Below, in pieces: positions 401 to 55,162 of a stretch of DNA of 55,162 bases. Position numbers and translations under genes: made by a program. Within the stretch, counting starts at the first letter, position 1. The number at the start of each line of letters is the position of its first letter. The notes beneath the pieces are model-generated. The model did not search any database, was not told the DNA's origin, and saw only the letters and a list, made by a program, of their open reading frames with translations. Origin of the DNA: Truepera sp. bin119 (lineage in GTDB: Bacteria; Deinococcota; Deinococci; Deinococcales; Trueperaceae); assembly GCA_002239005.1 (NCBI GenBank), contig MPNL01000019.1, positions 1-55,162 on the forward strand, in the 5' to 3' direction.

Positions 401-517
401 ATAGCCACGCGGACCACCACTCGCTGTTGTCTTGACACTCTGACTGTCTAGAACCGCTGCTGTCGGCTCCAGACCCGAAGCCCCAACGGAGCCGTTCTTG
501 TCCGTCCTTGGGCTTCC
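401..517 (-). pseudogene. IS5-type transposase fragment joined to a dispersed hairpin repeat
   Basis: The leftward frame contains EPTAAVLDSQSVKTTASGG followed by PRGY, at 401-484. This matches the first catalytic-Asp region of IS5-group DDE transposases (the usual form is AAILDSQSVKTT-x-x-GG-x-RGYD). Downstream of the RGY the frame turns to nonsense up to 305. Upstream, at about 482-517, the complementary strand carries the dispersed repeat (CCAAGGACGGACAAGAACGG then GGGGCTTCGGG) that also interrupts transposases at the right end of the window. It is a dead fragment of about 28 recognisable residues. Confidence 0.6.
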
Positions 518-28852: not shown

Positions 28853-28897
28853 CTCGACTTTGCAATTCGAATTTAGGTTGTAAGATGATCGCACGCC

Positions 28898-29546
28898 CCC
28901 TTCAAGCCGTTCCCCAAATGAAGTCATCCCCGTCCAGAAAGCGATTTCTCGATCATTCTTCCTTCTCCCGGTATGGGCAAACTCAGTAGAACCTATTCGA
29001 GAACCGCCCCTTCATTCTTCATCATGCCCCCCCTACCGGCACCAATTCCAAAACCGTGGGTTCCGCCAAGGTCTGGTACGCATCTCCAAGGACGGACTCG
29101 CTGGATCTGGTGGGGGTGCGGGACAATCTCACGCCACTACCTACGGGTGGGAGGAGCTATAGGGATCGCCAGATTGCGGTCCAGCCCGTAAGTTTGGCTG
29201 TACACGGCTATGACGTCACCAACGGCCCCATGATTCTCTGCCCTGTGAGGGGGGCTGGGAATGTCTGGTCGGAGGACGCTGAGGCGCGACGCGTCCACAA
29301 ACCGGACACAATCGAGAACCTTCAAGTCGCGCTTCCGACTGCTGCTGTGAGGCGGCACGAGTGGCGACGGCACTAGGAGCGGCAACGAATACCAAGGAAT
29401 GCTTGGGGAGCCATATATACGTCCTCTGCCGCAGGCTGGCGTGGCCTATGTGACGCGTATCGGGTGGGGCAGAGGCTGATTGAACAGGTAGCCCTGCTCG
29501 TTGAAGGGCACCTGATCGGGCTGGGTGTTGCCCGCGATGTCGGTGG
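28898..29546. repeat. long direct repeat, copy 2
   Basis: From 28971 (GTATGGGCAAACTCAGTAGA) to 29546 (CCCGCGATGTCGGTGG) this segment matches 32497-33060 in direct orientation, with scattered substitutions and small indels. Its first 200 bp also match the copy at 5531-5737. The last 101 bp (29446-29546) duplicate the 3' end of the sulfite-oxidase-like gene. Frames are not conserved between copies because of indels (for example one extra G in the run near 29117), so the repeat is not a functional gene. Confidence 0.85.
29446..29546 (-). pseudogene. duplicated 3' fragment of the sulfite-oxidase-like gene
   Basis: The leftward strand encodes the last 32 or so residues of the protein at 32960-34081, ending FNQPLPHPIRVT and TAG. 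It differs by few bases (GTC for GTA in the penultimate Val codon, for example). It begins abruptly 23 bp beyond the stop of the VCBS/ASPIC gene. Nothing upstream of these codons is present, so it is an untranslated leftover of a duplication. Confidence 0.85.
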
Positions 29547-32217: not shown

Positions 32218-32421
32218 GGAGCCGACTCCATTATGACCGGTCTGGAGGCGCTCGGGTGGTGTGAGATTATCTCTGCTCTCCGCAGGGGATAGACCAGTCC
32301 TGGTGGATCCTGCACCCTGTGAAAAAGAGCGACCAACTTCCACTTGATCTAGCCTGCGTCAACCGTGAGTGCCCCAGCTACGGCCAGCCAGGACAAGGCA
32401 ACCTCCATCAAGGGAACTGCA

Positions 32422-32493
32422 AGGTCGGACAAGGACAACTTTGTTGGAGCTTCGGGGCGACTTACTCAAGTCTCTCGCGAGGCGGTCCGACCT
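32422..32493. repeat. dispersed hairpin repeat with 9-bp inverted ends
   Basis: AGGTCGGAC (32422-32430) and its exact complement GTCCGACCT (32485-32493) bracket a unit containing GACAAGGACAACTTTGTTGG and AGCTTCGGGG. The inner part matches the repeat family at 482-517, 54175-54232 and 55080-55130. It lies immediately left of long direct repeat copy 3, in the upstream region of the two-domain secreted gene. Confidence 0.6.
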
Positions 32494-32496
32494 CTG

Positions 32497-33060
32497 GTAT
32501 GGGCAAACTCGGTAGAACCTATTCGAGAACCGCCCCTTCACACTTCATCATGCCCCCCCTACCGGCACCAATTCCAAAACCGTGGGTTCCGCCAAGGTCT
32601 GGTACGCATCTCCAAGGACGGATTCGCTGGATCTGGTGGGGTGCGGGACAATCTCACGCCACTACCTACGGGTGGGAGGAGCTAAAGGGATCGCCAGATT
32701 GCGGTCCAGCCCGTAAGTTTGGCTGTACACGGCTATGACGTCACCAACGGCCCCATGATTCTCGTGCCCTGTGAGGGGGGGAATGTCTGGTCGGAGGACG
32801 CTGAGGTGCGACGCGTCCACAAACCGGACACAATCGAGAACCTTCAAGTCGCACTTCCAACTGCTGCTGTGAGGCAGCACGAGTGGCGACGGCACTAGGA
32901 ACGGCACGAATACCTAAGGGATGCTTTATACGTCCTCTGCTGCAGGCTGGCGATATGGCCTATGTTACGCGTATCGGGTGGGGCAGAGGCTGATTGAACA
33001 GGTAGCCCTGCTCGTTGAAGGGCACCTGATCGGGCTGGGTATTGCCCGCGATGTCGGTGG
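32497..33060. repeat. long direct repeat, copy 3
   Basis: This is the partner of 28971-29546, running from GTATGGGCAAACTCGGTAGA to CCCGCGATGTCGGTGG. Its last 101 bp are the genuine 3' end of the sulfite-oxidase-like gene. At 33061 the two copies diverge sharply (CACGTGTC here, GGGAAAAG in copy 2). The 463 bp left of the gene contain no conserved frame. Confidence 0.85.
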
Positions 33061-53835: not shown

Positions 53836-53935
53836 TCACGTCGTTTGCTACTTGATCTGCAGGCAAGGGAAGGGGGATGGTGGTTTCCATGACTATCCAT
53901 CCCCGCTACCAGTATAAGCCAGAAGAGCTGTTCCA

Positions 53936-54000
53936 GACGGACAAGACCCGTAGAGTCCGCCTTTGTGGCTTCGTTGGGCCCGTAGACCCGTAGAGTTCGT
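53936..54000. repeat. cluster of GACCCGTAGAG hairpin repeats
   Basis: GACCCGTAGAGTCCG occurs at 53945-53959 and GACCCGTAGAGTTCG at about 53985-53999, separated by TTGTGGCTTCGTTGGGCC. They are variants of the unit GGACCCGAAGAGTCC at 54483-54497. The arms can pair as short hairpins. Confidence 0.6.
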
Positions 54001-54069
54001 TTTTGGCTGGTTTCGCTTCGGGTCACCGTATTCGTTTACCTAGACGACTGGCTCAAACCCTATCAGAGC

Positions 54070-54232
54070 CTACTCCCAAGGCTGGGGTCCCCCGCTGGGG
54101 GTACGGACTCACAAGCGGACTCGTTGGGTCCGGGTCAGCAACCTGCCCAGAAAGCGAGCTACAGCGAACTCCAAGGACGGACAAGGACGGCTTCGAAGGA
54201 CGAGTTCTTCGGACTGGAGCTTCGGGTGACTA
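54070..54232. repeat. composite block of the dispersed hairpin repeat inside the IS982 gene
   Basis: The block contains GGCTGGGGTCCCCCGCTGGG, the hairpin unit GGAC-TCGTTGG-GTCC (54117-54131), and GGACGGACAAGGACGGCTTC followed by GAAGGACGAGTTCTTCGGA and GGAGCTTCGGGT. The last part reappears almost unchanged at 55080-55130, and its variants are at 482-517 and 32424-32457. Confidence 0.75.
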
Positions 54233-54330
54233 TTGCAGTGGTAGGAGAGATCCTCGCTCAACCCAAGGTCGGATTCGCTGGATACGAGAGCAACTGGTAC
54301 TGGATCGTCAACCAACTCTTCAGTGAACTG

Positions 54331-54352
54331 TAAGGACGGACTCTTCGGGTCC
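54331..54352. repeat. hairpin repeat unit inserted in the IS982 gene
   Basis: TAAGGACGGACTCTTCGGGT continuing CC contains the stem GGAC (54338-54341) and GTCC (54349-54352) around TCTTCGG. It introduces the stop codon that separates two transposase segments in the same frame. Confidence 0.7.
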
Positions 54353-54482
54353 CAAGACTACCCCACTACAGCCGCCATCACCGGATCTTGCGGAATGCCG
54401 AGAGGCTAGTGACTGAACTTGCTCTCTCCGTACTGGGGGACAGCCGGATCCACCTGATCGACAGCAAACCACTGCCGGTAGC

Positions 54483-54560
54483 GGACCCGAAGAGTCCGTA
54501 CCCCCAGGTCCGGCGAACCTGTCTTTGGGGGACCCCGTCCTTAGCGAATCGAAGCGAGTT
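54483..54560. repeat. inverted hairpin repeat unit ending the IS982 fragment
   Basis: GGACCCGAAGAGTCC (54483-54497) is the exact reverse complement of the unit at 54338-54352. It is followed by GTACCCCCAGG and GGGGGACCCCGTCCTTAG, an inverted form of the GGGG-rich parts at 54070-54110. The transposase sense stops exactly at its left edge. Confidence 0.7.
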
Positions 54561-54636
54561 TCAGTACTCTGGTACGGTCACTGACCCTTCATGCAACTCA
54601 GGTGAAGACGTTTCTATCGCTCACCCGTACCCGGAG

Positions 54637-54690
54637 CTCCGACGAAGCCGTCCTTGTCCGCCCTTGGGTCCGACTTTGGACAAGGGTAAA
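54637..54690. repeat. dispersed repeat unit, inverted orientation
   Basis: CGAAGCCGTCCTTGTCCGCC followed by CTTGGGTCCGACTTTGGAC is the inverted form of the GGACAAGGACGGCTTCG core at 54180-54200. The flanks 54561-54636 and 54691-54862 hold no gene I recognise, apart from the ribosome-binding site at the right end. Confidence 0.6.
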
Positions 54691-54862
54691 CCTCAAGATC
54701 GCAGCCTTCAACCTGCTCTACTCGGGGGTGCTATTCAGGTAGCAAACGGGGTAATTTGTAAGATACTAACGTATGTGGAGACACATTGGAGAGGTAATCC
54801 AGTTTCTATACCTGTCCTCTCAACCTTCTTCCCGTGCCCCTTTGCACCAAAAGGAGGAGGTC

Positions 54863-55162
54863 ATGGGACCAACAGCAACGAAGGTTGGAAGCGGTGGCAA
54901 GCGCGATGCGGCGAGCGAGTCAGCTGAGCATCGCCCGAGTGTTCTCGAGTTGGCCCGCGAGTCAGGCAACGTCGCTGAGGCCTGCCGTCAACGAGGGTTG
55001 GATCGGACCAGCTTCTACCAGTGGAAGCGACGCTCAAGGCTGGGGTCCCCCGAGGGCGGCGGGGTCCCCCCTTGGGGGGTACAAGGACGGCTTCGAAGGA
55101 CGAGTTCTTCGGACCGGAGCTTCGGGTCTGGGGGTACGGATTCGCTGGATCAGACTCAGGGC
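54863..55162 (+). CDS. IS481-like transposase, N-terminus, interrupted by repeats and cut by window edge
   Basis: The ATG at 54863 lies behind a strong AAGGAGGAGG. The protein reads MGPTATKVGSGGKRDAASES, then HRPSVLELARESGNVAEACR and QRGLDRTSFYQWKRR, the helix-turn-helix that opens IS481-type/integrase-core transposases. After KRR the family normally continues with FQTHG and then a GLKDLPP run. Here the frame stays open but reads Gly/Ser/Arg-rich sequence derived from the dispersed repeat (from 55027). The gene is therefore probably inactive. The catalytic core would lie outside the window. Confidence 0.65.
   Translation, partial: MGPTATKVGSGGKRDAASESAEHRPSVLELARESGNVAEACRQRGLDRTSFYQWKRRSRLGSPEGGGVPPWGVQGRLRRTSSSDRSFGSGGTDSLDQTQG
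55027..55162. repeat. composite dispersed repeat inside the IS481-like gene
   Basis: AAGGCTGGGGTCCCCCGAGG, then ACAAGGACGGCTTCGAAGGA, CGAGTTCTTCGGAC and GGAGCTTCGGGTCTGGGGGT repeat the block at 54070-54232 in the same order. GGATTCGCTGGATC follows at about 55139. The insertion keeps the transposase frame open up to the window edge. Confidence 0.75.

Follow-up and report, generated by a model that had tools for sequence, protein, structure and literature searches.

A 20-nucleotide hairpin unit in transposase and restriction-modification genes of a Truepera genome: a probable very small mobile element

Repeat units in the transposase genes of the window

The window, i.e. the whole 55,162-nt stretch of Truepera sp. 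bin119 DNA that was analysed, ends in a remnant of an IS982-type transposase gene and the 5′ part of an IS3/IS481-type transposase ORF, both of which hold copies of a short repeat (the unit), singly or in nests; further copies lie upstream. The features are given below, where L-numbers denote stretches of the host genome, in which the paralogous copies lie, and unit types (AC, CT and so on) are named by the free positions of the stem.

471..509, minus strand: degenerate two-level composite, an AC-type unit with a nested CT-type unit, which reads AAGGACGGAC[AAGAACGGCTCCGTTGGGGC]TTCGGGTCT and resembles composites in L063, L057 and L056
29088..29107, plus strand: IS end region with one unit, AAGGACGGACTCGCTGGATC; in L031 the paralogous site is empty, with 2 nt (TC), not 20
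32421..32458, plus strand: IS1-like remnant with a degenerate composite of two levels; the flanks match the IS1-like copies L048, L058, L060 and L051
32614..32633, plus strand: one unit, AAGGACGGATTCGCTGGATC, within an IS end region, at the site paralogous to that of 29088
53851..54756, plus strand: host, IS982-type transposase gene remnant with units; 80% identity to the IS982 copy in L061 (G000:C1:53992-54519), paralogues in L061, L046, L044, L040, L057 and L052
53938..54023, no strand assigned: multi-level unit nest with inverse units at 53945-53964 and ~53985-54003 and a 36-nt indel at 53978; the same IS982 flanks enclose a shorter nest in L061
54078..54136, plus strand: split AC-type unit of 59 nt (a GGGGTCCCCC..GGGGGT 21-nt hairpin plus a unit of 18 nt net), with a 21-nt indel at 54082; the site holds a plain 20-mer in L061 and 2 nt in L057
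54172..54227, plus strand: three-level nest AAGGACGGAC[AAGGACGGCTTCG[AAGGACGAGTTCTTCGGACT]GGAGC]TTCGGGT; the paralogue L017/L061 is empty
54265..54284, plus strand: unit AAGGTCGGATTCGCTGGATA; empty in L040, with 2 nt (CA), and equivalent to KVGFAG in a more intact IS982 copy
54332..54351, plus strand: unit AAGGACGGACTCTTCGGGTC; its T+AA junction is a TAA stop
54483..54542, minus strand: AC-type composite with GGGGTCCCCC hairpin sequence and a nested GT-type unit (54507-54526); 39-nt indel in L040
54630..54665, minus strand: composite of 36 nt net, AC-type holding a CT-type unit (54636-54655); 36-nt indel against paralogues
54769..55162, plus strand: host, IS3/IS481-type transposase ORF, 5′ part; weak HTH_Tnp_1/HTH_29 matches (E 2e-5 to 1.5e-4), slightly below the Pfam cut-offs
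55036..55151, plus strand: large composite of two GGGGTCCCCC hairpins and nested CT-, GT- and AT-type units

The initial annotation of this DNA reported an IS982 gene interrupted at three places and an IS481-like gene interrupted at one. Interruption of the IS982 gene was borne out, but the count was too low: units were inserted at seven or more places, and several of these insertions are nested two or three levels deep. The IS3/IS481-type ORF indeed has one large composite, and the copy of this ORF in L045 is 98% identical, insert included. The sequences listed in that annotation were located at 54117-54131 (GGACTCGTTGGGTCC), 54338-54352 (GGACTCTTCGGGTCC) and 54483-54497 (GGACCCGAAGAGTCC), as was a further block, CAAGGACGGCTTCG, at 54182, 54643 (minus strand) and 55082; where the same block had been placed at 482-517 and 32422-32493, we found related composites, at 471-509 (minus strand) and 32421-32458. 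The two IS end regions in the window (28880-29141 and 32491-32666) are degenerate and terminate in GAGATAATCTCAC, a sequence context with many copies, several of which have a unit at the same position.

Sequence, boundaries and structure of the unit

The motif initially proposed, GGAC-N7-GTCC, occurs three times in the window against 2.0 expected, i.e. not above chance, and was dropped in favour of a longer unit of 20 nt, AAGGACGG-XY-TCNNNGG-Y'X'-C, where X/Y and Y'/X' are free stem positions. This 20-mer was recognised once the contexts of the copies of a longer block, GGACAAGGACGGCTTCG, had been listed; genome-wide, the block is found 14 times without a mismatch and 16 times with one, and its reversed control never. 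With the core pattern of the unit, AAGGACGGAYTCNNNGGRTC, we searched the genome assembly (91 contigs, 3.21 Mb, 96.8% complete) and relatives, and found 114 exact matches genome-wide (none for the reversed control) and no unit among 110 other genomes of the phylum Deinococcota. That the host belongs to this phylum was deduced from RpoB: the host protein is 68% identical to that of a relative assigned to the same order (G050), which in turn matches, almost without difference and from end to end, the 1119-residue chains of PDB entries 1ynj and 1iw7, both Thermus RNA polymerases; the family is probably Trueperaceae-like. There were likewise none in viral contigs, and two single matches, about chance level by our estimate, in the GTDB r220 contigs, which do not include the host genome. 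Detailed analysis was carried out on a 775-kb sample, comprising the window and ~720 kb more of the same genome in two sets of stretches, the second half of the sample being picked around units. It contains ~98 independent unit sites.

The boundaries of the unit are sharp. Around 74 strict copies the flanks differ at once on both sides, and alignment to intact and empty copies revealed a net gain of 18 nt per unit with no target duplication. At paralogous sites the spacing between conserved flanks was 2 nt (130 pairs) or 20 nt (313 pairs), and then 38, 56 and 74 nt; it was exactly 2 nt in 69 of the 77 best empty sites. Thus, 20 nt replace 2 nt, with a net gain of 18. A census of every indel that separates similar stretches within the sample, which made no use of the unit motif, had peaks at 18 nt (n=62, 57 of them with the unit motif) and 36 nt (n=11). 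At 21 of 28 sites the unit ends in the base that takes second place in the empty dinucleotide, so that the element may have a length of 19 nt and replace one nucleotide; at the other 7 of the 28 the two bases differ, leaving the right boundary uncertain by one nucleotide. The replaced dinucleotide starts with T at 22 of 28 sites, and, over ~100 sites, C stands directly before the unit in 63% and G is the second base after it in 58%. The two ends of the unit (AAGG, GGRTC) do not form an inverted repeat.

This slight preference for targets with C ahead of the unit, T at the junction and G as the second base behind is microhomology-like, and several insertion targets look like a TTCG loop, as might be expected from template switching or slippage in replication at hairpin-prone sites, where short tracts would be copied through microhomology with no dedicated element. 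Microhomology copying, however, starts and ends anywhere, and would not be expected to yield a fixed 20-nt tract and a fixed gain of 18 nt at many independent sites. We therefore regard this explanation as unlikely.

The unit consists of a 5′ arm, AAGGACG, followed by a hairpin with a 4-6 bp stem; RNA folding gives a 6-bp stem and a 3-nt loop if C follows the unit. The suggestion in the initial annotation that the stems vary in concert was confirmed. Covariation produces AT/AT, AC/GT, GT/AC and CT/AG stems, and both free stem positions are complementary in 87 of the 98 strict copies, which were selected regardless of these positions. Among 41 distinct sequences, for which one-mismatch rows were retained only with at least one complementary free position (a slight bias towards pairing that does not affect the 87 of 98), 93.9% of cells were paired vs 80.8% in shuffles, and 22 cells had double changes vs 7.9. 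The signal collapsed once the partner column was slid. The fold energy of single units was no better than that of shuffled sequence, and the structural evidence is thus covariation at two base pairs, not stability.

The series of gaps between paralogues (2, 20, 38, 56 and 74 nt) arises because units insert into units. At 54172-54227, for example, an AC-type unit holds a CT-type unit, which in turn holds a GT-type unit, and at 54078-54136 an AC-type unit is broken by a 21-nt GGGGTCCCCC-GGGGG hairpin plus another unit. This companion hairpin, GGGGTCCCCC-NN-GGGGGT, was found at ~15 places (in L055, L069 and others), nearly always inside or adjoining a unit, and seems to be specific for the AAGG/ACGG arm of the main unit. 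When it inserts, 21 nt are added, also a multiple of three. A two-unit nest was found at several unrelated sites, so that composites probably move as single blocks.

Fixed boundaries, the net gain of 18 nt, compensatory stems and self-nesting favour the view that the repeat is a discrete element. A constant 5′ arm in an assembly as fragmented as this one (91 contigs) might also point to an assembly or library artefact, such as an adapter-like 20-mer. Such an origin would be hard to reconcile with compensatory stem variants, a 21-nt companion hairpin, effects on genes that are in frame (see below) and insertions inherited in common by paralogues that have diverged to 81-95% identity, and we consider it extremely improbable.

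Host genes, reading frame and target bias

The initial annotation had raised the case that intact IS982 relatives carry the same sequences at the same positions; intact IS982 proteins from other genera (57-67% identical) turned out to be without inserts. Compared with these relatives, the host IS982 copy in L061 has RTDSSG, KVGFAG and NPKSPP extra, i.e. three clean inserts of six residues each. Stop codons are absent in all six frames for most unit subtypes (the TAC-loop subtype has one) and, 18 being a multiple of three, a host gene is lengthened by six residues, usually with its reading frame still open. Indeed, ORFs of IS982, ISP, N6_Mtase and rve type remain open across units. In the IS982 copy of the window, insertion after T gives a TAA stop, and this copy is thus broken.

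A type ISP restriction-modification enzyme (L069:6769-11586, minus strand) is intact, with 1606 aa, and has three unit insertions in its C-terminal specificity region, two of them single units and one a unit enclosing the 21-nt hairpin, all in frame; apart from the inserts it matches LlaBIII nearly end to end. A weak unit match in the methyltransferase domain of the same enzyme (L069 8920) was discarded as probably due to chance, there being no insertion relative to LlaBIII. In-frame units are also present in N6 and N4/N6 methyltransferase genes and in IS3/rve, IS1, IS66 and DDE transposases. In a TAXI receptor gene (L064) an exact unit lies at the end of the signal peptide, where the length of relatives differs by one residue only.

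Multi-copy DNA contains, or directly adjoins, 139 of 190 units, vs 9% of random positions. After de-duplication to 98 independent sites, 62 were in multi-copy IS-like DNA, which makes up 9% of the sample (binomial p ~4e-40). Another 29 lay in ORFs of single copy, many of which encode transposase or restriction-modification proteins, and the other 7 fell in single-copy DNA that lacks a long ORF and accounts for 12% of the sample. As the sample was partly picked around units, the IS share of the background is inflated and the test is conservative. Two readings had been offered in the initial annotation, together with the caveat that enrichment and compensatory stem changes might be missing; the enrichment and the stem changes are both present. 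A miniature element preferring transposase targets agrees with the discrete nature of the unit and with the 62 sites in IS-like DNA, whereas an expansion confined to non-essential DNA fits poorly with only 7 sites in single-copy DNA free of long ORFs. One filled site is common to up to 11 IS copies, which suggests that unit-bearing IS went on multiplying after insertion, by themselves or with help in trans.

The bias might also reflect neutral expansion with purifying selection, in which units insert anywhere and survive in dispensable DNA, so that tolerance and copy-number hitch-hiking account for the distribution. Consistent with this, the host genes (transposases, restriction-modification) are dispensable, IS copies share insertions (the site in 11 copies), and contig C68, of 236 kb, has almost no units in its ordinary genes. 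However, insertion in frame should leave many host genes tolerant, and single-copy non-ORF DNA, which ought to be equally tolerant, received 7 of the 98 sites for its 12% of the sample vs 62 for the 9% that is IS-like. Neutral expansion is a real possibility, somewhat below an even chance; it addresses the bias only, and mobility of the element is compatible with it. Target bias is supported in preference to it, target choice and selective survival in dispensable genes being not separable.

Possible mode of movement and comparison with known elements

On the evidence given above, which includes filled and empty paralogous sites within one genome, the unit is probably a mobile element of very small size, gaining 18 nt per insertion, nesting, and hosted by IS and restriction-modification genes. 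In the mechanism that we propose, the short arm AAGGACG is single-stranded and adjoins a hairpin whose stem is maintained by compensatory changes. A unit of ~19-20 nt displaces ~2 nt, in most cases T and one further base and usually after C, adding 18 nt each time, and units take further units in or near their loops to give nests of 38, 56 and 74 nt. The hosts are chiefly IS transposase genes, with restriction-modification genes second. The intermediate may be a folded single strand, of DNA or RNA, whose hairpin would serve for recognition and which an enzyme would move in trans; transposing IS copies may then carry the units further. The specific single-strand intermediate is put forward tentatively. 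Taken as a whole, the proposal of a structure-recognised mobile element of 18-20 nt, silent in genes through its fixed gain of 18 nt and its lack of stops, preferring transposase genes, self-inserting and moved by an enzyme, may have close to an even chance, if slightly under it.

Candidates for the enzyme were sought in the genome. The sole RVT_1 match is a fragment of a group II intron-type reverse transcriptase at a contig end (L090, contig C22, first 800 bases), which is not linked to units, and a reverse-transcriptase partner was set aside. REPs are hairpins of 20-40 bp with an unpaired tag and high copy number (PMC3733652), and the unit is similar to REP/REPIN-type palindromes mobilised by a RAYT tyrosine transposase in its ~20-nt size, its single-stranded tag beside a hairpin and its many copies; CGTC REPs are, moreover, known without a dedicated transposase (PMC3733652). 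Yet Y1_Tnp/RAYT (PF01797) was not found at E<=1e-3 in the 96.8% complete genome, the tag AAGGACG is neither 5′-GTAG nor 5′-CGTC, the stem has 4-6 bp vs 8-9 bp in CGTC REPs, and REPs are mainly extragenic whereas the units lie inside genes. As no Y1 transposase was found at this threshold, the RAYT/REP mechanism was rejected, and we consider it very unlikely.

By behaviour, the closest precedent is the small dispersed repeats (SDRs) of Nostoc and relatives. These, reportedly described by Elhai et al. in 2008, are said to be dispersed repeats of ~21-27 nt that form hairpins with compensatory changes, some of them self-nested, with no known mover. On this description, and with common descent not claimed, the unit is likewise dispersed and short (20 nt, marginally under the 21 nt of SDRs), has a hairpin backed by compensatory changes, and self-nests, as seen in the 38/56/74-nt series and the 36-nt indels. 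Unlike SDRs, it occurs in Deinococcota, not cyanobacteria, swaps for 2 nt with a fixed gain of 18, resides in IS transposase and restriction-modification genes, and keeps their frame. Nor does it lie within HIP1 octamers, where SDR5 is located according to passages in papers citing the SDR work (PMC4390886, PMC3116915).

Other small elements share single traits with the unit. Rickettsia palindromic elements (RPE) are palindromic and in frame within protein-coding genes (PMC10969869), and the unit also inserts in frame in ORFs. The RPEs, however, are ~100-150 bp rather than 20 nt long, occur in unrelated metabolic genes where the units are mainly in transposase and restriction-modification genes, and are not described as self-nesting in PMC10969869. 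Yeast mitochondrial GC clusters and organellar double-hairpin elements are tiny mobile palindromes that form composites by merging and lack a dedicated enzyme of their own making (PMC4478555). The unit resembles GC clusters in merging into composites, but the latter are organellar, ~42 nt long and make an AG target duplication, in contrast to the 2-nt replacement without duplication seen here. The unit also differs from MITEs, as it has neither terminal inverted repeats nor a target duplication.

The initial annotation had called the element undescribed, which, as far as we searched, is true of the sequence family but not of the type of element, already represented by the SDRs. The unit is among the smallest mobile-looking DNA elements described, and usually leaves its host genes readable. 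We know of no described case of this smallest class of mobile DNA in the phylum Deinococcota. The family provides a clean and countable case of the class, in which filled sites can be set directly against empty ones, and the strict replacement of 2 nt by 20, together with the rule of +18, limits the chemistry of insertion far more than previous cases known to us, so that the question of what moves tiny hairpins is now testable. It also provides a route by which genes, including one for a restriction-modification enzyme, acquire six-residue insertions in frame.

Two further observations were made in the sample. At L069:15420-15488, near a contig end, two identical units lie in opposite orientation ~50 bp apart, an arrangement resembling a REPIN. 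The 775-kb sample (L031-L070) also contains a CRISPR-like repeat, approximately GTTTCCGATCCCCATGAGGGGTAATGAG, with ~21-24 k-mer copies.
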